Source: Mycolicibacterium goodii
GTDB taxonomy: Bacteria; Actinomycetota; Actinomycetes; Mycobacteriales; Mycobacteriaceae
DNA: 64,000 nt
Reading direction: 5' to 3'
NCBI RefSeq assembly: GCF_001187505.1
Contig: NZ_CP012150.1
Coordinates: 5,738,048-5,802,047 of the forward strand
The notes under the pieces were generated by a model. The model was not told the origin of the DNA and did not search any database. It saw only the letters and a program-made list of their open reading frames with translations. This document shows, piece by piece, positions 9,406 through 29,617 of this stretch. The stretch's first letter is position 1. Every line of letters starts with the position of its first letter. Position numbers and translations under genes: made by a program.

Positions 9406-10188
9406 TCAATTGACGACGAGGCCGCCGTTGACGTTGTAGACGGCGGCGGTGATGAAACCGGCATCCTCGGACAGCAGGAACTCGATGGTGGCGGCGATGT
9501 CCTCGGTTCGGCCGACTCGGTCGACGAGCAGGCCGGTGACCAACTCGGCCTTGCGCTCCTCGGTGAGGGCGCCGCCCATGATGTCGGTGTCGATCGGGCC
9601 GGGGCTCACCACGTTGACGGTGACGCCGAACTTGCCGACCTCGCGCGCAACGGCGCGACTGAGACCGATGACCGAAGCCTTCGACGCCGAGTACGGAACC
9701 TTGCTGTAGGTGCCGCCGCCCAGCTGGGCCGATGCAGACGACAGGTTGACCACACGCCCGACGCCGCGTTGCACCATGCCGCGAATCGCACGCTGATTGA
9801 CGACGAAGGTTCCGGTGCTGTTGATGTCGAGCACCCGGTTCCACTCGGCGAGCGACAGTTCCAGGAAAGGAACGGGTGAGGCGACACCCGCCGCGTGCGC
9901 CAGTCCGACGACGGGCGGCAGTTCGGCCTCGATCGCGGTGAATGCGCGATCCACCGATTCGGGATCCGCGACATCGACGCCGTAGCCGAGAACCGTTGTG
10001 CGGGACTCTTTGTCGACCTCCCGTGCAAACTCGACGACGGCCGCTTCGTCGACGTCGAGGGCTGCGACGTTCCACCCTGCCGTGGCGAGCCGTCGTACGG
10101 TGGTGCGGCCGATGCCGCGGGCCGAACCGGCACCGGTGACCACTGCGGTGCGGTCCGGCGGAAATGCGTGCGGAGCTGTCATGACCAT
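9406..10188 (-). CDS. Short-chain dehydrogenase/reductase (SDR)
   Basis: A 260-residue NAD(P)-dependent oxidoreductase of the classical SDR family. The cofactor motif is VVTGAGSARGIGR, the active-site Ser is in NLSSASA, and Tyr/Lys are in PYSASKASVIGLSRA; PGPIDTD follows. It is the first gene of the SDR-MFS-hydroxyacid dehydrogenase operon and is divergent from the SorC-type regulator, which is its likely controller. A hydroxy- or sugar-acid substrate is inferred from the context only. A second Met two codons in is an alternative start. Confidence 0.88.
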   Translation of the reverse strand: MVMTAPHAFPPDRTAVVTGAGSARGIGRTTVRRLATAGWNVAALDVDEAAVVEFAREVDKESRTTVLGYGVDVADPESVDRAFTAIEAELPPVVGLAHAAGVASPVPFLELSLAEWNRVLDINSTGTFVVNQRAIRGMVQRGVGRVVNLSSASAQLGGGTYSKVPYSASKASVIGLSRAVAREVGKFGVTVNVVSPGPIDTDIMGGALTEERKAELVTGLLVDRVGRTEDIAATIEFLLSEDAGFITAAVYNVNGGLVVN

Positions 10189-10536
10189 CTTTCTTCGGTG
10201 ATGTGGGTGGGTGGGCGCGGCGCGGAGGCGGCGCCGACGGATGAGATCGCGGTTTCCCTCTGCGCCAAGGCTTTTGATGCGAGATCTCGGTCTCATCTGC
10301 GATCGGCCGTATCCGGCGCGGACCACATTGTTCCTCGGGAGTGAGCTGGCTAACAGGACTTCCTATAGGATATTGGTATAGGCCGCGGGAGCGTCAAGGG
10401 CTTGATAGCGCTACATATTCCTGTTTTTCCAGGAGATTCTGAGCTCATGGGCGCTCTGGCGGGAAAATGATTCACAGCCGTCCGGATACCCGGTCCCAAC
10501 GGCCGAGACGGCCGACGGCCAGGAAGGGGTGAACTC
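10189..10536. other. Divergent SDR/sorC control region
   Basis: 348 bases between the two divergent starts. The stretch near 10360-10385 is noticeably AT-rich for this genome and holds an inverted repeat (separate entry). A short hairpin-like TCCTG/CAGGA pair lies near 10418-10433. The right end carries the AGGAAGG ribosome site for the SorC gene. I see no ORF. Confidence 0.5.
10362..10382. promoter_or_regulatory. Inverted repeat, probable SorC operator
   Basis: Perfect six-base arms CCTATA and TATAGG separated by nine bases, in an AT-rich patch between the divergent SDR operon and the SorC-family gene. SorC/DeoR-type regulators usually bind such sites upstream of their own and target genes, so this is the natural candidate. 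Binding is inferred. Confidence 0.4.
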
Positions 10537-11556
10537 ATGGTGGCGGACACGGCTGATCCGTATCCTCTGCGTCCTGCGGCCGGTTCCGACGACATCGACC
10601 TCGCCGAGGAGGAGCGGCGCCGAGCCGCCGACGCCGCTGAGCTCTACTACGTCCAAGGTCTGAAGATCGAGGACGTCGGTAAGCGCCTGCACCTGTCCCG
10701 GTCGACCGTTTCTCGCCTGCTCGCCAGGGCCCGGCAGCACGGTGTCGTCGAGTTCGTGTTGCATCGGACGCCGGACCGGTCGGCACGCCTGGCGACCCGG
10801 CTCAACCAGCGCTTCGGCGTTCGCACGCTGATCGCCGACAGCGGTGATGCCGCTCAGAACGGGACTCGGCTCGATGTTGTCGCCGAGTTCGCGGCACGAC
10901 GGCTCGCCGCAGTCGTCGGCACCAACACGACGATGGCGGTTGCCTGGGATGCCACGGTCGAGGCGGTCTCCCGTCATCTGATCTTCTGCCCCACCCGCGG
11001 GGCTCGGGTGGTTCAGCTCAGCGGTTCAGGCAACGCGTCCGCGTCGAACATCCTCAACGCAGGCCAACTGCTCGACCGGTTCGCCCGCGCGTTCTCCGCC
11101 TCGGCACATCACCTTCCGGTGCCTGCGTTCTTCGACTCGGCGACAACTCGCGACGCGATGTGGCAGGAGCGGTCTGTTCAGCGAGTCCTCGCGATCCGTC
11201 GAAACGCCGACGTGGCGCTGTTCACGGTCGACACGCTGGACAACGACGTGCCCGACCACCTGTACCGGTCGGGCTACCTCGATGCCGTCGATCTTCAGGA
11301 GCTGCGGCGGGACGGGATCGTGGGACACATCGGCACCGTCTTCCTGCGCGCCGACGGCAGCTCGGACGGCACTGCGTTCAACCAACGCAGCACCGGCATG
11401 CCCCTGTCGGAGCTGCGCGGTGTGAAAACGCGGATCCTGGTGGTCAGTGGTCCCGCGAAAACGGCGGCCATCCTCGGGGCACTGCGCGCGGGCGCCGCGA
11501 CCGACCTGGTTCTCGATGAGGTCACCGCGCTGGCCTTGCTCGACGCGACCTCATGA
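10537..11556 (+). CDS. SorC-family sugar-responsive regulator
   Basis: A 339-residue regulator. The N-terminal helix-turn-helix (about residues 30-70; LYYVQGLKIEDVGKRLHLSRSTVSRLLARAR) has the typical SorC/CggR layout, and the remaining 260 residues form the sugar-phosphate-isomerase-like effector domain with motifs such as QLSGSGN and a late DLVLDEVTALALL. It probably senses a phosphorylated sugar or related metabolite and controls the divergent SDR-MFS-dehydrogenase operon. ATG 10537 has AGGAAGG eight or nine bases upstream. A GntR gene follows 24 bases later and is probably co-transcribed. Confidence 0.85.
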   Translation: MVADTADPYPLRPAAGSDDIDLAEEERRRAADAAELYYVQGLKIEDVGKRLHLSRSTVSRLLARARQHGVVEFVLHRTPDRSARLATRLNQRFGVRTLIADSGDAAQNGTRLDVVAEFAARRLAAVVGTNTTMAVAWDATVEAVSRHLIFCPTRGARVVQLSGSGNASASNILNAGQLLDRFARAFSASAHHLPVPAFFDSATTRDAMWQERSVQRVLAIRRNADVALFTVDTLDNDVPDHLYRSGYLDAVDLQELRRDGIVGHIGTVFLRADGSSDGTAFNQRSTGMPLSELRGVKTRILVVSGPAKTAAILGALRAGAATDLVLDEVTALALLDATS

Positions 11557-18900: not shown

Positions 18901-20232
18901 CTAGCGGATGGGTTCCACCCGTTTGATGAGCAGACCAAAGCACAGTGCGCCTGCGACCACGACGGCACCGGTCATGACGAGAGGCACCTCGAATGAACCG
19001 GTCACACCGTACAGCGCACCGATGACGATCGGGCTCAATGCGCTGCCGATGTTCGAGAAGAAGTTCTGGGTCGCACCGAGACTTCCAACGGTGCTGGAAT
19101 CCACCACGTCGGCGGGCAGACACCAGATCGTGACGATCGTGAACGCCGACGCCGCATAGGAGACCGACATCAACACGAGCGCCTGCCAAGCGTGCGGCGC
19201 GATGGCGGCCAGCGCAATCACCGAACACACCAGCATGCCGCCGACCAGGCAGGTCTTGCGAACCCGGTTCAACGACCAGCCACGCGCCAGTAGGTAGTCG
19301 CCGACGAGGCCGCCGGCCCAGCTGCCCAGGATCGCCGCCAACGGCGGGATCATCCCGAAGAAACCCAACTTGAGCAGGTCGAAGCCACGCTCTTCGACGA
19401 GGTACGACGGGAACCACGTCAGGAAGAACGTGATCATGAAGTTGAGGCTGAAGAAGCCCAGCATCATGCCCCAAACCGTGCGCCGCTGGAAGAGCTCGGC
19501 GATCCGCATCGGCTTGGTATCCGGATCGTGATCGGCGGCCGCCTGCTCGGTGTGACTCTCACGGATGATCGCCAACTCGGCCTCGTTGACCGCCGACATC
19601 ACCTCGGGGCGCCGGTACCAGGCCCACCAGCCGATAGCCCACAACACACCGAGCCCACCGGCGAAGAGGAAGGCCGCTCGCCAGCCCCACAGCCCGATGA
19701 CGAGAGCGATCAGCGGTGTGGCGGCGGCACTCCCGATGCGGGCACCACTGTCGTACACCGACGTGGCACGACTGCGGAGGCGCAGCGGAAACCAGTGCGA
19801 GACCGTCTTTGCGGCCGCCGGGTACGCGCCCGCCTCACCGACGCCGAGACCCAGTCGGAGGCCTAGCAACGCACCGAAGCTGTTGACGACGCCGGTGGCC
19901 CCGGTGAACAGCGACCACACGAGCACTGAAGCGCCGAACATGACACGTTCCCCGAATCGGTCAATGAGCCGACCGGCGGGAATCTGCATGAGAGCGTAAC
20001 TCCACGAGAAGGCACTGAGGATGAGGCCCTTCTCCGTGGGGGTGAGGTGGAAATCCTCGGTCATGAACGGCAGGCTCACCGACACCGCCGAGCGGTCGAT
20101 GTAGTTGATCGCCAAGCCGACCGCACAGAACACCGCCACGGCCCACCTGATTCTGGACGCCCGGCCACTGCCGGATCGCCCCGAACCGGGGCCGACAGGA
20201 TTCCCGTGCGTCATTACCCGTGTGCTGGTCAT
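18901..20232 (-). CDS. MFS transporter, anion:cation symporter type
   Basis: A 443-residue transporter with about 12 membrane segments. AVGLAINYIDRSAVSVSLPFM and MQIPAGRLIDRFGERV place it in the ACS family (galactonate/hexuronate/tartrate type), which suggests uptake of a sugar acid. Start ATG 20232 has GGAGG seven bases upstream. It is divergent from the DeoR gene and its catabolic operon and shares their repeat-rich control region, so it most likely imports that operon's substrate. Confidence 0.88.
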   Translation of the reverse strand: MTSTRVMTHGNPVGPGSGRSGSGRASRIRWAVAVFCAVGLAINYIDRSAVSVSLPFMTEDFHLTPTEKGLILSAFSWSYALMQIPAGRLIDRFGERVMFGASVLVWSLFTGATGVVNSFGALLGLRLGLGVGEAGAYPAAAKTVSHWFPLRLRSRATSVYDSGARIGSAAATPLIALVIGLWGWRAAFLFAGGLGVLWAIGWWAWYRRPEVMSAVNEAELAIIRESHTEQAAADHDPDTKPMRIAELFQRRTVWGMMLGFFSLNFMITFFLTWFPSYLVEERGFDLLKLGFFGMIPPLAAILGSWAGGLVGDYLLARGWSLNRVRKTCLVGGMLVCSVIALAAIAPHAWQALVLMSVSYAASAFTIVTIWCLPADVVDSSTVGSLGATQNFFSNIGSALSPIVIGALYGVTGSFEVPLVMTGAVVVAGALCFGLLIKRVEPIR

Positions 20233-20495
20233 CGTCGAGCCTCCATGCTCAAGCCTTAATGATCGTTTCGCGCATATGAGGTGAGTAGAATCGCCGGATC
20301 CACAGAACTGTGGTGCTCGACACAATCATCGCCTCGCATCCATATGATTGAACCGATCATTTCAAATGTCAATAGGCGATCAGTGACCGCAAAATATGCA
20401 TATATCGCGCATCATCCGTCTTATCCGTGGACTTATGTGCGCGTTTCACGCATATAAGGTTGACTTGCGCACATCGCGCATGTAACGTCGAGCCC
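20233..20495. promoter_or_regulatory. DeoR operator repeats and leaderless deoR promoter
   Basis: A 17-base motif, TTTC(G/A)CGCATAT(G/A)AGGT, occurs at 20266-20282 and 20444-20460, with partial copies (ATCGCGCAT) at 20404-20412 and 20473-20481. A TTGACT (20460-20465), 17-base spacer and TAACGT (20483-20488) lie seven bases before the deoR GTG, fitting a SigA-type promoter on a leaderless mRNA; repeat copies overlap both hexamers. ATGAT-N7-ATCAT at 20343-20359 is another dyad. Autoregulation and control of the MFS gene are inferred. Confidence 0.65.
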
Positions 20496-21419
20496 GTGAC
20501 ACAGCCCACAGACTTCGAGCCGGAGGGCAACTTGGGTGGCCGCCCCGGGGTTGAGGACGAACACGGCGAAGGCCGAGGTGCCCGCCGCCGCGACATCCGC
20601 GGCGCACGCCGCCGTGAGCAGATCCTGCAGCTGCTGCAGACGGTCGAGTCCGGATCGATGAGCGTCGAGGAAATCGCCGAGCGGTTCGATGTGTCCTTCG
20701 CGACGGTGCGCCGCGATCTGAGCCGACTGCATCAGGAACGCCACATCACCCGCACGTACGGCGGCGTGGCTCTGACGGTCCCGACCGAGCTGTCGATCCA
20801 TCAGCGTCATCTCGAGTTCACCCGCGAGAAGGACGCCATCGGGCGACTCGCCGCCGAGGCCGTCACCGACGGCGCCGTCGTGATCGTGGACGCTGGTACC
20901 ACCACCGAGTTCGTCGCGCGACACCTCGATGCCGCCGATGTCACCGTGTTCACCAACGGTATCGGCGCGATCAACATCCTCATGCGCAAGGACCACGTTT
21001 CGCTGGTGGTACTCGGTGGCCGGTTGCGGCGCGTGAACGAGACGATCAGCGGTGCGGAAGCAGAAAACATGTTGCGGTCGGTCGTCGCCGATTTCGCGTT
21101 CATCGGCGCCGATGCCGTTCACCCCGAATACGGCGTCGCATCACGCACCTTGGAGCAGAGCCGGCTCAAGACCATCATGATGCAGCGCGCCAGGCAGACG
21201 GTCGTCGTCGCCGACCACCGCAAGCTCGAGACCGACCAGTTCAACTACTGGTCGTCGCTCCCGGACTACTGGCGCTTGGTCACCGACGATGGCGCCGAGA
21301 GCGACGCCGCCCGCCGTGCCGCACTCGAAGAACTTCGCCGCGTCGGTGCATCCATCGACCTGGCGCATCCGGTGCGCGCCCTGACCGACACCGCCGAAGA
21401 GAAAGGCACACAGTCGTGA
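20496..21419 (+). CDS. DeoR-family regulator
   Basis: A 307-residue regulator. A basic N-terminal extension precedes the DeoR winged helix (RREQILQLLQTVESGSMSV, then EIAERFDVSFATVRRDLSRLH), and the effector domain has the classic phosphosugar-sensing DeoRC motifs IVDAGTTTEFVARHL, VFTNG, LGGRLRRVNETISG and FIGADAV. It probably represses its operon and the divergent MFS gene until a phosphorylated intermediate appears. GTG 20496 is seven bases after a -10. Its stop overlaps the next gene's start by four bases. Confidence 0.9.
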   Translation: MTQPTDFEPEGNLGGRPGVEDEHGEGRGARRRDIRGARRREQILQLLQTVESGSMSVEEIAERFDVSFATVRRDLSRLHQERHITRTYGGVALTVPTELSIHQRHLEFTREKDAIGRLAAEAVTDGAVVIVDAGTTTEFVARHLDAADVTVFTNGIGAINILMRKDHVSLVVLGGRLRRVNETISGAEAENMLRSVVADFAFIGADAVHPEYGVASRTLEQSRLKTIMMQRARQTVVVADHRKLETDQFNYWSSLPDYWRLVTDDGAESDAARRAALEELRRVGASIDLAHPVRALTDTAEEKGTQS

Positions 21420-22504
21420 CGACCACGATGTCGCAATCACGTGACACCACACCACCTACGAGTGCAGACAACTTCCGGCAAGCGGTGCTCTACCAGCCCA
21501 ACGACATGCGGATCGAGCGCGCTCCGATACCTCGGCTGGAGCCCGGCGACGTATTGCTCCGGGTCGACGCGGCACTGCTGTGCGGGACCGACGTCCGGAT
21601 CTTCGAAGGCCGCAAACAGAAGAACGTCACGTTCCCCACCGTGCTCGGCCACGAATTCGCCGGCACCGTCGTCGACGCCAACGGACTGCTGCCCGACGGT
21701 GTTCAGATGGGAGACCAGGTCGCCGTATATCCCTTGGTGACCTGCGGCACCTGCACGGCGTGCCGTCGTGGGCACGAGAACATCTGCCGCAACCGCAGTG
21801 CATTCGGCTACCAGCTCACCGGTGGCCTGTCGCAGTACGTACACGTGCCGGCGGTGGCGCGCCAGAATCTGGTGCCTGTCCCCGGCGTACCCGCCACCCA
21901 GGCGGCGATCATCGAGCCGGTGGCCTGCGCCTACAACGGCCAACAGCTAGCAGACATGGCCAAAGCCCAGACCGCGCTGATCGTCGGATGTGGGCCTCTG
22001 GGACTTATCCACGCAGGCCTCGCGAAGAGCTTCGGGGTCGAGAAGGTTGCCGCTGTCGATCCGATCGCCGGCCGTCGCGAGATGGCCAAACGGTTCGGAG
22101 CAGATTTGGTGCTGGAGCCTGGGCCCGAAACCGCCGCGGCGCTCGACGATTTCACCGCAGGCGGCATCGACGTGCTGGTGATGGCGATCGGACGAATCGA
22201 TGCGCTCACACCCTATCTGGGCAGTCTGGCACCTGGGGCACGGGTGTCCGTGTTCGCGGGATTCGGCGCTGACGCAGATCTCGCGGTGTCAGCCAACGAC
22301 GTCCACTACAACGAATGGACCATCGTGGGCGCATCTTCGTGTCGGTTGGACGGGTTCCATGCCGTCGCACCCATGGTCGCATCCGGGGATCTTCCGGTCG
22401 CGGAACTCATCGGCACCCAACTTCCGCTCGATCAAGCGGTGGAGGCCATTGCGCTCGCCGGTTCGGGTGCCGACATGCGTGTCGGCGTCGATCCATGGGC
22501 ATGA
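21416..22504 (+). CDS. Zinc-dependent medium-chain dehydrogenase (polyol/sugar-acid type)
   Basis: A 362-residue MDR-family oxidoreductase. Catalytic zinc ligands are in LLCGTDVR and GHEFAG; the four structural-zinc cysteines are in CGTCTACRRGHENIC; EPVACAYNG and the NAD motif VGCGPLGLIHAG follow. Relatives include sorbitol, threonine and L-idonate 5-dehydrogenases. It probably oxidises a secondary alcohol of the imported substrate to a ketone, the first step of the operon pathway. The GTG start overlaps the deoR stop (GTGA). Confidence 0.88.
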   Translation: MTTTMSQSRDTTPPTSADNFRQAVLYQPNDMRIERAPIPRLEPGDVLLRVDAALLCGTDVRIFEGRKQKNVTFPTVLGHEFAGTVVDANGLLPDGVQMGDQVAVYPLVTCGTCTACRRGHENICRNRSAFGYQLTGGLSQYVHVPAVARQNLVPVPGVPATQAAIIEPVACAYNGQQLADMAKAQTALIVGCGPLGLIHAGLAKSFGVEKVAAVDPIAGRREMAKRFGADLVLEPGPETAAALDDFTAGGIDVLVMAIGRIDALTPYLGSLAPGARVSVFAGFGADADLAVSANDVHYNEWTIVGASSCRLDGFHAVAPMVASGDLPVAELIGTQLPLDQAVEAIALAGSGADMRVGVDPWA

Positions 22505-22542
22505 CCACAGCTCGCAAGTCCACAACCAAGGAGAACCCACCA

Positions 22543-23385
22543 ATGACGACCACATTCACGCCGGCGTTCGACATCAACCGCTCCGGCACCACTCCGGCAC
22601 TGGGCCGGGAGCTACGGTTGCGCCGCCTGTTCGGGACCGATGGACGGACAGTAACAGTTGCGCTGGACCAGGCGGTGCCGCGCGGCGTGGCTCCGCGCCT
22701 GGCCACCATCTCATCGACCTTCGACAGCATCGCCGAAGGTGAACCCGACGCCGTCACGATCACCAAGGGACTGGCCGGACCGCTGTTCGGCGGCCGGGCG
22801 ACTCCCGTGCCGTGGATCCTGAAAGCATCCATGTTCTCCGTCGAGTTCCACCCCACCTACGACGCCACGATCGGTACCGTGCGCGATGCGATCCGTTTGG
22901 GCGCCGACGCTGTCGCCGTGGGGATTTCCGCCGGCTCATCTCATCAGGTCGCGATGTTCGAGATGCTCACCAACGTTGTCGAGGAAGCGCACAACTGGGG
23001 GCTTCCGGTTGTATGCCACGCATACCCATCCGGTGAAATGTGGGGTGATCGAAAGGGTTCCACGGAATCGGTGCTATACGCATCGCGCGCCGCAGCGGAA
23101 CTCGGCACCGACATCGTCAAGACCTGGTACACCGGCTCAACTGCCGAGTTCGCAAAGGTCGTCGAGGGGACGCCGGCGATCGTCGTCGCAGCCGGGGGCG
23201 CGCAGGCTCCCAGCCCGCTGGATGTGCTCAAACAAGCCGCGTCGGTCATCGAGGCCGGCGGCCACGGCATGACCGCAGGCCGCAACATCTGGCAGGCGCC
23301 CGATCCTGCCAAAATGGTCAACGCCCTCAAGGCCGTGATCCACGGTGGGGATACCCCCGAGGCCGCAGCCAAGCTCCTGGACTGA
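22543..23385 (+). CDS. Class I aldolase, DhnA/FbaB/LsrF type
   Basis: A 280-residue TIM-barrel aldolase. VTVALDQAVPRG, AVAVGISAGS and, most tellingly, the Schiff-base lysine in AAELGTDIVKTWYTG mark the DhnA-type class I family; VVAAGGAQAPSP is the phosphate-binding end. It is expected to cleave a phosphorylated keto compound made by the dehydrogenase and the FGGY kinase, giving DHAP plus a short aldehyde or keto acid. AAGGAG nine bases upstream fixes ATG 22543. The exact substrate is unknown. Confidence 0.83.
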   Translation: MTTTFTPAFDINRSGTTPALGRELRLRRLFGTDGRTVTVALDQAVPRGVAPRLATISSTFDSIAEGEPDAVTITKGLAGPLFGGRATPVPWILKASMFSVEFHPTYDATIGTVRDAIRLGADAVAVGISAGSSHQVAMFEMLTNVVEEAHNWGLPVVCHAYPSGEMWGDRKGSTESVLYASRAAAELGTDIVKTWYTGSTAEFAKVVEGTPAIVVAAGGAQAPSPLDVLKQAASVIEAGGHGMTAGRNIWQAPDPAKMVNALKAVIHGGDTPEAAAKLLD

Positions 23386-23392
23386 ACCCACA

Positions 23393-24886
23393 GTGGCCTA
23401 TCTCGGAATCGATGTGGGCACGTCGGCCACCAAGGCGGTCGTGATCGCCCCGCACGGAGCCGTGCTCGCCCGGTCCCGGGTACCACATCCCGCAGCGCGC
23501 CGATGTGGTCCCGGCCGGGTCGATCCAACGGCCTGGCGCAGCAGCGTCGTCTCGGCGGTCAGGTCGGTCGTCGACGCCCTGGATGCTCGCGACGCCCCGA
23601 TCAGCGCCGTGGGGCTGGATACCCACGCCCCCACGGCGCTGCTCCTCGATGCAGCAGGACGGCCGCTGACGGCCGGAATCGCATGGGACCACCCCGGGCT
23701 GTCCGAACCCACCGACGACCTGATCAGCGTGCTCACCGCCGAGGAGGTGGCGCTGATCGGCAACCATCTGATGCCGGCTACCGCGATGGGGGCAGCCTAC
23801 CGCCTGCTGCAGTCGATCGAGCCGGAAGCGCAGCGCACCGCAACAACCTTCGGCCTCGCGGGCACCTGGTTGGGACAGTGGCTCACCGGGCGGCGGGCGA
23901 TCGATCCCACACAGGCGTCCTATACCGCGCTCATGGCCAGCACCGACGGGAGCTGCCGATGGTTGGGCGACCTGCTGACGAGGTTCGGCATACCAGCTCA
24001 CCAACTACCTCCGATACGGCCGTCACTGAGCGTGCTGGGTCCGCTGAAGTCCACGGCAGCAACCGAACTCGGCCTGCCGGAAGGTGTCCCGGTACTCGTG
24101 GGTTCAGGTGACACCCCGGCCGCATCGTATGCCTTGGGTTCGGCACCCGGTGGCAGACCGCTGTTCATCATGGGCACCACCCATGTGGTGTCCAATTCAC
24201 TGGCCCAACCGGACCCGAGGGCCCTGGCGCTGCAGCGCTCAGACGTCCACCCCCAAAGGTGGCTGATCAACGGCGTCATCAACGGCGGTGACGCACTGGC
24301 ACACGGGGCTGCTGTCGCCGGCTTCGGCGACGACGATGCCGCTGTCGCCGATCTCGTCGCCGCGGCGTTCACAGCCAAACCTGCCGAGACCCGCGCCGGT
24401 GCGCCGGTGTTCATTCCTCACATCCGCGCCGAACGCGGTCCGCTGTGGTTCGACGGTCCACATACCGCGCTGGTGGGGATGTCCGCCGACACCCCGATTC
24501 ATGTGGCCGCCCGCGGCATCGTGGAGGGCGTGCTGTTCGCCGACCGAATGATCATCGAGACCTGTGTCGGCCGGGATCAGCGCACACTCTACGTCAGTGG
24601 CGCGTTCGGCGATGGACCCGCAATGCCGCAGTTGCTGGCCGATGCGCTCGACCGCGTCATTCTGGTGGTCGACGAAAGTCACCTACCCGCCGTGGGGGCC
24701 GCCGCCATGTGCTCCGAAGTGTTGGACGGCCGGGTGGTGACGCCACCGGAAACACGACGGGTATCACCGCGCATCGAGTGGCGTGCGACTGTGGCGGCAC
24801 GGTGGACCCACTACCGCGACACATGGTCCTCGGTCACGGGTGTCACACCACTCGGAACTCTCGACGAAGCAATGACGGCACCATGA
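23393..24886 (+). CDS. FGGY-family carbohydrate kinase
   Basis: A 497-residue two-domain ASKHA-fold kinase. The N-terminal phosphate loop is LGIDVGTSATKAVVI; GLDTHAPTALLLD and GIAWDHPG are in domain I; GVPVLVGSGDTPAASYALGS and YVSGAFGDGP (adenosine region) are in domain II. The family phosphorylates sugars, polyols and keto-acids such as xylulose, glycerol and gluconate. Start GTG 23393 is eight bases after the aldolase stop. It probably supplies the phosphorylated substrate of the aldolase. Confidence 0.88.
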   Translation: MAYLGIDVGTSATKAVVIAPHGAVLARSRVPHPAARRCGPGRVDPTAWRSSVVSAVRSVVDALDARDAPISAVGLDTHAPTALLLDAAGRPLTAGIAWDHPGLSEPTDDLISVLTAEEVALIGNHLMPATAMGAAYRLLQSIEPEAQRTATTFGLAGTWLGQWLTGRRAIDPTQASYTALMASTDGSCRWLGDLLTRFGIPAHQLPPIRPSLSVLGPLKSTAATELGLPEGVPVLVGSGDTPAASYALGSAPGGRPLFIMGTTHVVSNSLAQPDPRALALQRSDVHPQRWLINGVINGGDALAHGAAVAGFGDDDAAVADLVAAAFTAKPAETRAGAPVFIPHIRAERGPLWFDGPHTALVGMSADTPIHVAARGIVEGVLFADRMIIETCVGRDQRTLYVSGAFGDGPAMPQLLADALDRVILVVDESHLPAVGAAAMCSEVLDGRVVTPPETRRVSPRIEWRATVAARWTHYRDTWSSVTGVTPLGTLDEAMTAP

Positions 24887-24899
24887 CAAGGACCTGCTG

Positions 24900-25853
24900 T
24901 TGACGATCTACGTTTCGAGACTGCTCACCGACCGCGCCATGGCGCACCTGGAATCGCTGGATGTTCCGTTCCGGGTGGGCGGCGAGGCCCCACCGGACCG
25001 GGCCGCCCTCGAAGCCGGCATCGCGGGCGCCGAGGCCGCTGTCATCACGCTGACCGAACGCGTCGACGCCGAGTTGCTCGCCGCCGCGGGACCACAGCTC
25101 AAGGTCATCGCGAACGTCGCTGTCGGATACGACAACATCGACGTCGGCGCCGCGACAGCCGCCGGTGTCACGGTCACCAACACACCCGGTGTGCTGGACC
25201 GCGCGACCGCCGACCACACATTCGCGCTGATCCTCGCCGCGACACGCCGGGTGCTCGACGGCGACCGGTTGTTGCGGTCGCGCCAACCGTGGGTGTGGGG
25301 TCCGCGCATGCTGGTCGGCCTCGACATCAGCGCTTCAGCGACGCTCGGCATCCTCGGCTACGGTCGCATCGGCAAATCAGTTGCCCAGCGCGCCAAGGGT
25401 TTCGACATGAAAATCCTGGCCTCCGCGCGCAGCCGCGAACCGGGCACGTCCGAGGACGGTGTGCGGTTCGTCGACACCGACACGCTGCTGGCCGAGTGCG
25501 ATGTGCTCTGTGTGCTCACCCCGTTGACCCCGCAAACCCGCCACCTGATCGACGCGAACGCGCTGGCGAAGATGAAACCCACGGCGTACCTGGTCAACAC
25601 CGCACGCGGCGGCGTGGTCGACGAATCCGCGCTCATGAGCGCCCTGCACGCCGGGCGGTTGCGCGGTGCCGCGCTCGATGTCTTCGAGAACGAACCGCAC
25701 ATCGATCCCCGCTTGCTCGACACGCCGAATCTGGTTCTCACACCGCATATTGCGAGTGCCGGCGAATCGACGCGCGATGCTATGGGTATTCTCGCTGTCG
25801 ACAATGCCGCCGCGGTTCTCGCCGGGAAACCGGCGCTCACCCCTGTCAGATAG
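24900..25853 (+). CDS. D-2-hydroxyacid dehydrogenase (hydroxypyruvate/glyoxylate reductase-like)
   Basis: A 317-residue NAD(P)-dependent dehydrogenase. VAVGYDNIDV, the Rossmann motif LGYGRIGKSVA, catalytic Arg in NTARGGVVDESAL, Glu in DVFENEP and His in LTPHIASAG are all present and typical of GyaR/GhrB-type glyoxylate/hydroxypyruvate reductases. With glycerate kinase directly downstream it most likely reduces hydroxypyruvate or its tautomer tartronate semialdehyde to D-glycerate. TTG 24900 is supported by AAGGA seven bases upstream. Confidence 0.88.
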   Translation: MTIYVSRLLTDRAMAHLESLDVPFRVGGEAPPDRAALEAGIAGAEAAVITLTERVDAELLAAAGPQLKVIANVAVGYDNIDVGAATAAGVTVTNTPGVLDRATADHTFALILAATRRVLDGDRLLRSRQPWVWGPRMLVGLDISASATLGILGYGRIGKSVAQRAKGFDMKILASARSREPGTSEDGVRFVDTDTLLAECDVLCVLTPLTPQTRHLIDANALAKMKPTAYLVNTARGGVVDESALMSALHAGRLRGAALDVFENEPHIDPRLLDTPNLVLTPHIASAGESTRDAMGILAVDNAAAVLAGKPALTPVR

Positions 25854-25859
25854 CACCGG

Positions 25860-26984
25860 ATGAAAATCGTTTTTGCCCCGGACTCCTTCAAGGAGTCGAT
25901 GACGGCCTCCCAGGCGGTGGCCGCGATGCGCGACGGAGTGCACTCGGCGCTCCCCGACGCCGAATGCGTAGGCGTGCCGATGGCCGACGGCGGTGAGGGA
26001 ACCGTCGACGCGGTGGTCGACGCACTCGCCGGCGAACGCGTGACGGTCGAGGTGTCCGATCCGCTCGGACGTCCGATTCGGGCCCACTACGGCTTCATAC
26101 CCGACCGTTCGCTCGCCGTGATCGAGATGGCGACGGCCTCCGGTCTGGAACTCGTGGCCCCGGCGGATCGAGACGTGCTGCGCGCAAGCACTTTCGGAGT
26201 CGGTCAACTCATCTCTTCGGCGCTGGATCGCGGCGCGACCGACCTGCTGATCGGGCTGGGCGGCTCGGCGACCAACGACGGCGGCGCCGGGATGCTCACC
26301 GCACTCGGCGCGACTCTGCTCGACGCCGACGGCGCACCGTTGCCTCCCGGCGGCGCAGCACTGGCCCAGCTGGACCGGATCGATGTGTCCGGGCTCGACG
26401 CACGCCTGGCCGACATCCAGATCAGGATTGCCTCCGACGTCACGGCTCCGCTGCTCGGGCCGGGCGGCGCCAGTGCGGTGTTCGGCCCCCAGAAGGGCGC
26501 TGGTCCGTTCGAGGTGGAGACCCTTGAGGCCGCGTTGACGCGGTTGGCCGTGGTGACCGAGGAGACCCTGGGCCGGGCCCGGCCGGAACTTCCCGGTGCA
26601 GGCGCGGCAGGTGGACTCGGCTTCGCGCTGCTGGATTTCCTGGGGGCCGAGTGCAGACCCGGCGTCGAGGTGATCGCCGAGACCGTGGGTCTGGCCAAGG
26701 CCGTGGTGGGTGCGGACTGGGTGTTCACCGGTGAAGGCAGCGTCGATGCGCAGACCGTGCTCGGTAAGACCCCGTTCGGAGTGACCCAGGTGGCCCGTCA
26801 GGCCGGCGCGCGGGTGGTGATCTTCGCGGGCCGCGTCGGTGACGACGCGGGCGTCCTGCTCGACCGCGGTGTCGAGCGCCTCGTCGCGATCACCGTGCCG
26901 GGCACACCCATCGAGCAGGCGCTGCGCGAGGGTCCACAATCACTTGCCCGCGCCGCCGCCGAGGTCTGCCGCACCCTGTCGTAA
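25860..26984 (+). CDS. Glycerate kinase (GlxK/GarK family)
   Basis: A 374-residue kinase that phosphorylates D-glycerate; enzymes of this family usually make 2-phosphoglycerate. The motifs APDSFKESMTA, PMADGGEGTVDA, GLGGSATNDGGAGML, the Asp region SDVTAPLLGPGGA and FTGEGSVDAQT are diagnostic. It is last in the DeoR operon, six bases after the 2-hydroxyacid dehydrogenase, and it gives the pathway its exit into lower glycolysis. The 3' end faces a small membrane-protein gene on the other strand. Confidence 0.93.
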   Translation: MKIVFAPDSFKESMTASQAVAAMRDGVHSALPDAECVGVPMADGGEGTVDAVVDALAGERVTVEVSDPLGRPIRAHYGFIPDRSLAVIEMATASGLELVAPADRDVLRASTFGVGQLISSALDRGATDLLIGLGGSATNDGGAGMLTALGATLLDADGAPLPPGGAALAQLDRIDVSGLDARLADIQIRIASDVTAPLLGPGGASAVFGPQKGAGPFEVETLEAALTRLAVVTEETLGRARPELPGAGAAGGLGFALLDFLGAECRPGVEVIAETVGLAKAVVGADWVFTGEGSVDAQTVLGKTPFGVTQVARQAGARVVIFAGRVGDDAGVLLDRGVERLVAITVPGTPIEQALREGPQSLARAAAEVCRTLS

Positions 26985-27393: not shown

Positions 27394-27428
27394 GCAGGCG
27401 CGGTATCCGCTCGGGATACCGCGCCTGC
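27394..27428. terminator. Terminator hairpin after the amine oxidase gene
   Basis: A perfect 15-base-pair stem (27394-27408 with 27414-27428) and a 5-base loop, about ten bases beyond the amine oxidase stop on the minus strand. It lacks a U-tract. It may also stop transcripts coming from the left. The 240 bases between it and the small membrane gene show no other feature. Confidence 0.75.
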
Positions 27429-27437
27429 GGGTTGTGT

Positions 27438-29411
27438 TCAGTGGTGGTGGCAGGCCGCCGGCGGTGACGGCGGAACGTCGAGTGCCGGGTTGCCGTCGAA
27501 GAAGCCGACCGGCTTGAGCTTGAAACCGGTGTAGTGACACGGCATCACCGGCCAGTCCTCGGGACACACGACGTGGTGGGCGCCGACGGTGTACCAGAGC
27601 ACGATGTCGGTGTTCTCCAACGGCGCACCGTCGGCGACGTACTGCGGTAGCCCCTGCGCCTCGGCGCACTGGTACATGTAGTCACCCGCGGCGTAGAGCT
27701 CCCTGGGGTCGTACTTGGTGACCCACAGGTTGTGTTGCACGAACCGGGCGCGGTCGTAGATCACCGAGCCTTCCTGCACCATCACCGGCACGATGTCCTT
27801 GGGCATCAGCTTGTAGGCGACCGGGGAGCCGAACTCGTTGAGCTTCGACGGGTTGACCACCTTCCAGTACCGCCCCGTCGAGTACTCCCAGTCACGAGCC
27901 CCCTCGGCCTCGGACGCCACCAGGGTGTCCCTGGTGATCCACGCGTTGTGGTGCGGATTGAGCTCGGGATCGGGTTCGGGGATCGAATCCACCTCGTACA
28001 CACTGTTTCCCGGACCGTCGATGCTCATGTCCATCCGGAAGTTGAAGAAGTGCTGGTGGTTGGGGCCGTACATGCCGGGTGCCACCATCTTGCCCCACCG
28101 CGGCGTCTCGTTCTCGGCGATCGCGCCCGTGGTGAGCACACCGGTGAGCTTGACTTCCATCTCGATCGAGGCGTCGTTGTAGAGGTACCAGAAAAACCCG
28201 TACTCGTAGTTGCCGACGGTGCAGATCATCGAGATCACCAGGCGCCGCGAGCGCCGCACCTCGACCTCACCGGTGCGGAAATCGGTGTGCTTCCACGAGA
28301 TCCCGTAGTCCTCCTCATGCATGCAGATGGCGTTCGGGATGGTCACCGCATTGCCGTCGGAGTCGTTGACGGTGCCGTCGAAGTAGTGGATCTCACCGAG
28401 GCAGTCACAGCCGAGGGTCAGCGGGTTGGCCGAGAAGCCCATCCCGACCTCACCCATGTCGAAGACGTTCTTGTTCCAGTGCGTCGGCGACGAGTCACCG
28501 TAGGGCACAACCATTTCCGACAGCGCAGCGCGGTACATGACGGGCCGGACGGTGCCGCGGTCGTCGTAGGTGATCTCGTGCAGCACCAGACCCTCGCGCG
28601 GGTTGAATCCGATGCGCAGTGACCACTTCTGCCACTTGACGTTCCAGCCGTCGACGGTGAAGCTCGGTCCGTCGGGCTGCGTGATGTCGATCTTCTTGAC
28701 GTCGGATCGGAACTCGGTGAAGGCGGGCCGGTTGTCCGGATCGAACATGAACTGTTCGGTGTAGTTGCCGCCCTTGGTGGGCAACGGGACCACACCGTGG
28801 TCCTCGATGTCGAGGATTTCCATCTTGTCCAGGTCGAACGTCACGATCAGTCCCTCGACCGGTCGGGCATAACCGTTCTCCGACGGCGCGGCGCGCACAA
28901 AGGTCAGCGGCCGGCAGATCAGCGGTGAGTTGTCGTAGTGGTCCTGCGCGCCGTAGTAGCCTGCGGGCCACGGGTCGATCATCGTCAGACTGAAGTCGGT
29001 GACACCGCGTTTGCGCATCGCCTCCTGCCACCGCGGATCCTCCCGCACCTTCTCCTCGACGCCGGTCATGTGCTCGACGAGGTAGGACGGGAAGCGGCCC
29101 GGTATGGGGGTCCACGACTCGATGACGCGGGCCCCCAGGTCGACGACCGCCTCGTAGATCAGTTTGACCGCGGCGTCGTACATCGTCACGAAGGCCCGGC
29201 GCGCGACGTCCACGCCCACGAACGTGAGCTTGTCGTTCTTGGCCGGTTCGGCCAGTTGGATCATCACGAACTTCAAGGTGGGCGTTGCGTAGTCGGATGC
29301 GGTGATGACGGCGGCCGCCGCCTCGATCTCGGCGCCGGTCAGTGGGTCCAGCGGATACGGCGCTGCCGTGGCCGTACCCTCGACGTTCGTGATCGTGCTG
29401 TCCATCGTCAT
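27438..29411 (-). CDS. Copper amine oxidase (primary-amine oxidase)
   Basis: A 657-residue quinoprotein that oxidises primary amines to aldehydes, releasing ammonia and hydrogen peroxide. The topaquinone precursor is Tyr402 in the consensus T-V-G-N-Y-E-Y; the copper histidines include NHQHFFNF, and the catalytic-base region is around YFDGTVNDSDGN. The two N-terminal domains and the large beta-sandwich are complete, and the C-terminus ends in a His run (ACHHH). No signal peptide is seen, so it is probably cytoplasmic. ATG 29411 has GGAGGAAG nine bases upstream. It lies next to an APC permease that may import the amine. Confidence 0.94.
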   Translation of the reverse strand: MTMDSTITNVEGTATAAPYPLDPLTGAEIEAAAAVITASDYATPTLKFVMIQLAEPAKNDKLTFVGVDVARRAFVTMYDAAVKLIYEAVVDLGARVIESWTPIPGRFPSYLVEHMTGVEEKVREDPRWQEAMRKRGVTDFSLTMIDPWPAGYYGAQDHYDNSPLICRPLTFVRAAPSENGYARPVEGLIVTFDLDKMEILDIEDHGVVPLPTKGGNYTEQFMFDPDNRPAFTEFRSDVKKIDITQPDGPSFTVDGWNVKWQKWSLRIGFNPREGLVLHEITYDDRGTVRPVMYRAALSEMVVPYGDSSPTHWNKNVFDMGEVGMGFSANPLTLGCDCLGEIHYFDGTVNDSDGNAVTIPNAICMHEEDYGISWKHTDFRTGEVEVRRSRRLVISMICTVGNYEYGFFWYLYNDASIEMEVKLTGVLTTGAIAENETPRWGKMVAPGMYGPNHQHFFNFRMDMSIDGPGNSVYEVDSIPEPDPELNPHHNAWITRDTLVASEAEGARDWEYSTGRYWKVVNPSKLNEFGSPVAYKLMPKDIVPVMVQEGSVIYDRARFVQHNLWVTKYDPRELYAAGDYMYQCAEAQGLPQYVADGAPLENTDIVLWYTVGAHHVVCPEDWPVMPCHYTGFKLKPVGFFDGNPALDVPPSPPAACHHH

Positions 29412-29617
29412 AACGGTGTGCTTCCTCCGCTGTCGGTGGATCACCGCGTTTCGCCGGTGACCGCTGAAGGCTGACGCAATTTGCGTCCGAGGAAAAGAAT
29501 TGCGCAGTGACGTTTCGGCAGTCTCCACGCGCAATGTCGGCGACGTAAACTCTGCACCGGCTCCGGTTACGTTGTGATGTCCTGCCACAACGGTTTTCGT
29601 AGCCCGCACACAGAACG

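Follow-up and report, generated by a model that had tools for sequence, protein, structure and literature searches.

The window analysed here is a 64,000-nucleotide stretch of Mycolicibacterium goodii DNA, bases 5738048–5802047 of a 7.1 Mb single-contig genome, and our subject is a catabolic-looking gene cluster within it. A transporter gene of the major facilitator superfamily (MFS) is divergent from six genes that encode a DeoR-family regulator, a zinc-dependent medium-chain dehydrogenase (ZnDH), a DhnA-type aldolase, an FGGY-family kinase, a D-2-hydroxyacid dehydrogenase (2HADH) and a glycerate kinase (GlyK) (Table 1). All seven genes named in the first-pass annotation are present without internal stops, and every product matches Pfam families above their cut-offs: MFS_1; DeoRC and HTH_DeoR; ADH_N and ADH_zinc_N; the DeoC/LacD aldolase family; FGGY_N and FGGY_C; 2-Hacid_dh and 2-Hacid_dh_C; and Gly_kinase. 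The coordinates give a 4-base overlap and then gaps of 38, 7, 13 and 6 bases from DeoR to GlyK, in agreement with the earlier claim that no gap exceeds 38 bases. The start of the MFS gene was corrected to ATG 20232, behind a GGAGG. For DeoR, GTG 20496 is the more likely start over 20427, and it lies directly behind a conserved TTGACT-17-TAACGT element. The kinase most likely starts at GTG 23393 (497 residues); its longest open frame begins at 23345.

Table 1. Genes and candidate sites of the cluster, in window coordinates.
Feature	Position	Strand	Basis
ACS-type MFS transporter, divergent from the operon	18901..20232	-	Pfam MFS_1
MFS–DeoR intergenic regulatory region	20233..20495		conserved blocks in nine-sequence alignment
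Candidate DeoR operator ATGATTGAACCGATCAT, inverted repeat, half-site TGATTG	20344..20360		conserved block in alignment
Candidate operon promoter TTGACT-17-TAACGT	20460..20488	+	by eye; conserved across alignment
DeoR-family regulator	20496..21419	+	DeoRC 146 bits, HTH_DeoR 60 bits
ZnDH, polyol/aldonate type	21416..22504	+	ADH_N, ADH_zinc_N
DhnA-type class I aldolase, Lys193 Schiff base	22543..23385	+	PF01791 117 bits, alignments, structure model
FGGY-family carbohydrate kinase	23393..24886	+	FGGY_N/FGGY_C
2HADH, glyoxylate/hydroxypyruvate reductase type	24900..25853	+	Pfam, NCBIfam, PDB relatives, motifs
GlyK, type I	25860..26984	+	PF02595 466 bits, TIGR00045
Terminator-like hairpin 3' of the operon, 15-pair stem	27394..27428	+	1 found, shuffles mean 0.5

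Scoring against the curated NCBIfam models placed only GlyK above a cut-off (TIGR00045, 436.2 bits against 168.45); it is the single TIGR00045 match of this genome. The other six proteins fall below every listed cut-off, and their names therefore give classes, not substrates. The transporter scores best with the D-galactonate transporter family TIGR00893 (309 bits, cut-off 395) and by this measure is related to that subfamily without being a member. The ZnDH possesses a four-cysteine structural zinc motif and an aspartate after the Rossmann strand, the latter suggesting NAD as the cofactor; its nearest models, IolM and Tdh, are both below cut-off. The kinase is nearest to XylB (138 bits, cut-off 380). 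The 2HADH reaches 289 bits with the PRK13243 glyoxylate reductase (cut-off 455) and 222 bits with GhrB (cut-off 492), its best relatives in the PDB are glyoxylate reductases, and the catalytic Arg, Glu and His motifs are kept.

The aldolase clears the DhnA/DeoC–LacD class I family PF01791 by a wide interval (cut-off 23.8 bits) and is 96% identical to a protein of Mycobacterium sp. SWH-M5 and 94% to one of Mycolicibacterium wolinskyi. Its structure model (pLDDT 91.4) is closest in fold to MJ0400 (an ADH synthase), LsrF and the archaeal class I fructose-bisphosphate aldolase (FBPA), and with MJ0400 and the archaeal FBPA it has the Schiff-base lysine, an aspartate and a tyrosine in common. These residues, D42, Y161 and K193, are invariant in all 61 aligned aldolase rows. 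The retention of Lys193, Tyr161 and Asp42, together with nearest folds that are aldolases producing dihydroxyacetone phosphate (DHAP), supports a predicted DHAP-type class I chemistry. None of the more specific models was reached: the archaeal-type FBPA model NF040816 gave 172.7 bits (cut-off 430), the ADH synthase models TIGR01949 and NF005556 gave 177.1 (299.45) and 216.8 (241), and the LsrF/AI-2 model NF006081 gave 123.9 (297); the transporter of the divergon is, moreover, an MFS protein and not an lsr ABC system. Seven positions are common to the cluster aldolases and do not co-occur in four relatives from other settings or in two solved aldolases. Among the window's residues, R47, T72, H159, Q135 and T244 were not found in MJ0400 or the archaeal FBPA (LsrF lay outside this comparison table), and R47 and H159 are also missing from the aldolases of two further loci, L023 and L024.

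The first-pass annotation had proposed a search for the same gene set in other actinobacteria; the comparison made here covered 25 loci (the window, L002–L020, L025, L027, L041, L043 and L044; the genes of L013 and L020 were located by tblastn). The ZnDH, aldolase and FGGY kinase occur together in all 25, beyond chance, the L016 kinase being located in a divergent TRAP operon. The sources are actinobacteria, a Rhizobium plasmid and two enterobacterial-looking genomes; L041 encodes an aldolase almost identical to the Pantoea ananatis protein P0235, from which we infer that the hosts of L041 and L043 are enterobacterial. A 2HADH is present in 21 loci and missing from L016, L017, L020 and L044 (a 37% relative lies 5 kb off on the opposite strand in L016 and was excluded from the count). 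Acid-type transporters accompany 23 loci, 19 of the ACS-MFS kind and four TRAP systems (L016, L025, L027, L044), the binding proteins of L025 and L027 matching DctP structures; L019 has another MFS protein, and L003 is cut off by the contig end. GlyK lies within nine clusters (window, L002, L007, L008, L011, L012, L015, L018, L043), with a fragment in L014. At the stated cut-offs the aldolase was found in 3 of 394 genomes of the class, 1 of 201 of the family, 2 of 392 in the family of G767 and, by profile, 3 of 376 of the phylum, counts in which the genome of the query is always included; it also appeared in 1 of 398 genomes in the phylum of the Inquilinus genome G588. The gene set is rare and yet crosses phyla.

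Several related stretches were set apart from the 25: three DhnA–FGGY pairs in other settings, the decayed L021, L026, whose contig equals that of L002 in length, and L045 (a 3.3 kb contig). The pairs (L022:9968-15216, L023:8799-15343, L024:343-3270) lie by ABC transporter genes without ZnDH or 2HADH and perhaps represent ketose pathways of the same kinase–aldolase logic. L021:8842-10975 of Propionibacterium acidifaciens appears to be a decayed copy, with matches to no more than fragments of MFS, ZnDH, aldolase and FGGY. Within the compared set, the L010 aldolase gene (Mycolicibacterium litorale F4, 10001-10836) has an apparent frameshift near codon 50, either genuine or a sequencing error, and at L019:4641-7407 (Micropruina) the distant MFS protein substitutes for the ACS transporter and adjoins a PF07005/PF17042-type kinase, presumably a DUF1537 four-carbon acid sugar kinase. 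Plasmid relatives at L028:7887-9632 (Rhizobium) and L029:6887-8634 (Palleronia) are of a different make-up: the partner of the DhnA aldolase is a PfkB kinase, and the neighbours include sugar isomerases and oxidoreductases. Ten stretches around other GlyK genes in eight cluster genomes (L030–L039) held no second copy of the whole set; one of them, L038:2992-8423 in the genome of L004, lacks the aldolase and FGGY kinase but has, close together, a GlyK, a 2HADH with 54% identity to that of the window and a distant ZnDH relative (28%).

The components of the set have been exchanged between loci. Identities between the window type and the L025/L027/L041 type are 35–41% for the aldolase, 35–38% for the ZnDH and 27–30% for the kinase. 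In L016 the ZnDH and aldolase are of the window type, the kinase (53%; tree support 99/98) and the TRAP transporter (70% identity for the large permease) of the L025 type; the L016 aldolase groups with that of L017 inside the window clade (94/96 and 97/99). L025 combines an L027-kind aldolase with a window-type 2HADH (56%), and in L027 and L041 the 2HADH is of the PRK06487 kind. The regulators differ among loci, being either DeoR or GntR/FCD proteins. Only supported groupings were used from the two trees, which carried long-branch warnings, uncertain positions for L023 and L024 and several unresolved forks. The enzyme set is thus constant while transporter, kinase, reductase and regulator are swapped, and the varied loci most likely encode one pathway for one kind of substrate. 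The substrate is judged to be an acid because the transporters are of acid type.

The identity of the second cleavage product depends on the acid. A DHAP aldolase would release glyoxylate from a 4-ketopentonate 5-phosphate, tartronate semialdehyde (TSA) from a 5-ketohexonate 6-phosphate, and hydroxypyruvate from a branched C6 acid. GlyK has been added to the cluster in three different ways: it follows 2HADH in the window and others, the MFS gene in L008 of Cellulomonas aerilata (38% identical to the window's GlyK) and, separately, the MFS gene in L043 (45%). Enzyme content was tested in 20 cluster genomes (21 for TSA reductase), eight of which have GlyK in the cluster; the L043 genome was outside this set. 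Glyoxylate carboligase (Gcl) exceeded its cut-off in 6 of the 20 and in only one of the eight, the window's own genome; TSA reductase did so in 12 of 21 and, again, among the eight in the window's genome only. The three arrangements, together with the lack of Gcl in seven of the eight genomes, lead us to regard the second product as most likely a C3 acid rather than glyoxylate. In clusters with GlyK, the 2HADH would then reduce this acid to glycerate, and we extend this reading to the other clusters. The expectation that loci without 2HADH have a TSA reductase found no significant support (Fisher p = 1.0). An association of in-cluster GlyK with absence of TSA reductase reached p = 0.015, but its 18 genomes were treated as independent and are not; that table omits G587 (decayed cluster), G164 and G767 and scores G583 as lacking the enzyme, for there only a 119-residue piece under cut-off lies beside gcl.

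Aldehyde-handling genes were seen beside two sets without 2HADH. At L016:1-5441 and L044:12538-17911 an aldehyde dehydrogenase and an iron-containing alcohol dehydrogenase adjoin the cluster, and in L044 a GntR/FCD regulator additionally adjoins Ldh_2 and RraA-like genes. For these extra enzymes, the closest curated models are mostly unreached and include sulfonate enzymes; the RraA-like protein reaches a 'hypothetical protein' subfamily. By analogy with the lactaldehyde enzymes of rhamnose catabolism, the two dehydrogenases may treat the C3 aldehyde. A further sugar-acid route by way of TSA is perhaps encoded at L031:2548-9345, a separate stretch in the genome of L020 (Schaalia vaccimaxillae) with genes for glycerate kinase, TSA reductase, a short-chain dehydrogenase and Hyi-like and transaldolase/FSA-like proteins.

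With a confidence slightly better than even, we interpret the cluster as an operon for the catabolism of a C6 sugar acid, the likeliest being a straight aldohexonate, which would be converted by way of DHAP and TSA to 2-phosphoglycerate. Read from gene content and its conservation, the exchange of parts, the catalytic residues and the genome context, the order of events would be as follows. The MFS protein would import the acid, and the ZnDH would oxidise C5 of the hexonate to give a 5-ketohexonate (equivalent to a 2-keto-hexuluronate, such as fructuronate or tagaturonate). The FGGY kinase would phosphorylate the adjacent CH2OH at C6; the aldolase would bind the ketone through Lys193 and cut between C3 and C4, releasing DHAP and TSA. 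TSA would tautomerise to hydroxypyruvate, to be reduced by 2HADH to D-glycerate, a step that could balance the NADH of the ZnDH reaction, and GlyK would form 2-phosphoglycerate. This scheme was largely anticipated by the first-pass annotation. The acid-type transporters, the coherent enzyme set, the DHAP-type chemistry and the glycerate product speak for it; the substrate, a straight hexonate of whichever isomer, the order of the steps, the enzyme activities and the regulation are the parts that we infer.

Several observations weigh against this interpretation. Apart from GlyK, every enzyme stays under the curated cut-offs, which leaves the substrate unnamed by any of them. Sixteen of the 25 clusters are without a full-length GlyK and four without 2HADH, and L016 and L044, both among the latter, may handle the C3 product differently. 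None of 20 genomes has a hydroxypyruvate isomerase (Hyi) over cut-off; some have weaker relatives, which score at most 310 bits. The absences of Gcl, Hyi and TSA reductase are, in turn, defined by curated cut-offs, and weaker relatives exist in every tested genome. Glycerate kinases are common in the class (128 of 148 genomes over cut-off), so their presence in all 20 cluster genomes was dropped as uninformative. As regards the isomerase, TSA is described as readily tautomerising to hydroxypyruvate at neutral pH, with older work cited, and those authors saw no distinct semialdehyde signal by nuclear magnetic resonance (PMC12694930); on that account an isomerase may not be needed.

Four other substrates or step orders were weighed. 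In a pentonate route the ZnDH would oxidise C4 and the kinase phosphorylate C5, and the aldolase would give DHAP and glyoxylate, the latter reduced by 2HADH to glycolate. The kinship of 2HADH with glyoxylate reductases and the many clusters that do without GlyK fit such a route; the repeated joining of GlyK, and the seven genomes in which glyoxylate has no Gcl path to glycerate, make it unlikely. A branched acid, 2-C-(hydroxymethyl)pentonate (2-carboxyarabinitol or hamamelonate), oxidised at C4 and phosphorylated at C5, would yield DHAP and hydroxypyruvate directly. Every enzyme would be employed, hydroxypyruvate is the exact substrate expected of 2HADH, no tautomerisation is required in genomes without Hyi, and several hosts are, judging by their names, presumably plant- or rumen-associated. 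Yet the route requires a ketone-forming cleavage, for which we know of no DhnA precedent, one keyword search of the literature listed no study of how microbes degrade such acids, and the aldehyde enzymes of L016 and L044, if they act on the C3 product, favour an aldehyde. We hold the branched-acid route to be quite unlikely, and the specific proposal that a plant acid of this kind is degraded by a ketone-forming DhnA retro-aldol reaction to be a slimmer prospect still.

The substrate could also be a neutral polyol, a ketose or a sulfonated sugar, split into DHAP and another aldehyde such as sulfolactaldehyde, with 2HADH and GlyK serving a side purpose. FGGY kinases act mostly on neutral sugars, the related pairs of L022 and L023 adjoin sugar ABC transporters, and neighbours in L016 and L044 score, under cut-off, with sulfoacetaldehyde reductase and sulfolactate dehydrogenase models. 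Against this stand the acid-type transporters, the linkage to GlyK and the hydroxyacid dehydrogenase, and the aldolases of L023 and L024 without R47 and H159; we regard a non-acid substrate as improbable. Least probable of all is that 2HADH acts first, reducing a 2-ketoaldonate to an aldonate for ZnDH, kinase and aldolase, while a GarR-type enzyme encoded elsewhere reduces TSA. The 2HADH family does include 2-ketogluconate reductases, one of them among the PDB hits (9m0t, 188 bits), but the models nearest to the two 2HADH subfamilies are those of glyoxylate reductase and general 2-hydroxyacid dehydrogenase rather than of a 2-ketoaldonate reductase, and TSA reductase over cut-off is missing from 9 of the 21 genomes, eight of them with in-cluster 2HADH and seven also with GlyK.

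Regulation of the operon was considered from an alignment of the MFS–DeoR intergenic region of the window with eight Mycolicibacterium/Mycobacterium loci. The palindrome ATGATTGAACCGATCAT has its sole match in the window at up to three mismatches (chance mean 0.07), with single or few base changes in some loci, for example L005, L007 and L014. This candidate operator overlaps the -10 element of a promoter-like TTGACA-17-AATCAT for the MFS gene (minus strand, 20372-20344; one found by the scan, shuffles mean 0.6). The conserved TTGACT-17-TAACGT element is absent from the consensus promoter scan listing of the window; it ends 7 bases before GTG 20496 and would possibly give a leaderless message. 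Acting through these predicted sites, DeoR would repress the operon until an intermediate is present. Downstream, the hairpin separates the operon from the following gene (27438-29609, minus strand), whose product looks like a copper amine oxidase.

The predicted steps resemble parts of known systems. In the L-rhamnose and L-fucose pathways an isomerase precedes an FGGY kinase that makes a ketose 1-phosphate, and a class II aldolase gives DHAP and a C3 aldehyde, lactaldehyde; in the window route a dehydrogenase would replace the isomerase and a class I DhnA enzyme the class II aldolase, and the C3 product would be acidic and bound for glycerate. The myo-inositol route through 2-deoxy-5-keto-gluconate 6-phosphate (DKGP) also ends in DHAP, from a 2-deoxy substrate, with other kinase and aldolase families and malonate semialdehyde instead of TSA. 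Its aldolase step, on a substrate of 5-ketohexonate 6-phosphate type, is the nearest described one (PMC9007349). That pathway is defined by an IolC kinase with DUF2090 or an IolJ aldolase (in part after PMC9007349), and the window has neither, only FGGY and PF01791 proteins. The sulfo-Embden–Meyerhof–Parnas aldolase YihT and the sulfohexulose-1-phosphate aldolase 8tnf are likewise PF01791 proteins yielding DHAP and a C3 anionic aldehyde; according to PMC12421959, their substrate is a ketose 1-phosphate with an anionic C6 and the pathway is marked by a PfkB-type (PF00294) kinase, and the kinase beside the window aldolase is FGGY, not PfkB. Glucarate/galactarate and glyoxylate catabolism also convert a C3 product to D-glycerate and 2-phosphoglycerate (for glyoxylate, PMC12694930), but from a semialdehyde made by GarL or Gcl and reduced by GarR or GlxR, where the window route would use 2HADH. 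Keyword searches of 5.39 million open papers, with closed-access journals mostly outside, returned no description in which this gene set or chemistry was recognised, in line with the earlier remark that no described pathway has exactly this gene set. As predicted, it is a new pathway built from known kinds of enzymes and without a description found in the open literature.

Sugar acids are usually broken down by dehydratase and 2-keto-3-deoxygluconate routes. If our interpretation is true, they also have a route by splitting to DHAP that delivers both halves to lower glycolysis and keeps NADH in balance; the branched-acid route, if that were true instead, would let microbes use the carbon of a plant Rubisco inhibitor. 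The aldolase positions shared within the cluster could then serve to sort and relabel proteins now annotated as fructose-bisphosphate aldolase or ADH synthase. The occurrence of the same set, with exchanged parts, in actinobacteria and proteobacteria provides several independent systems in which the pathway can be tested.

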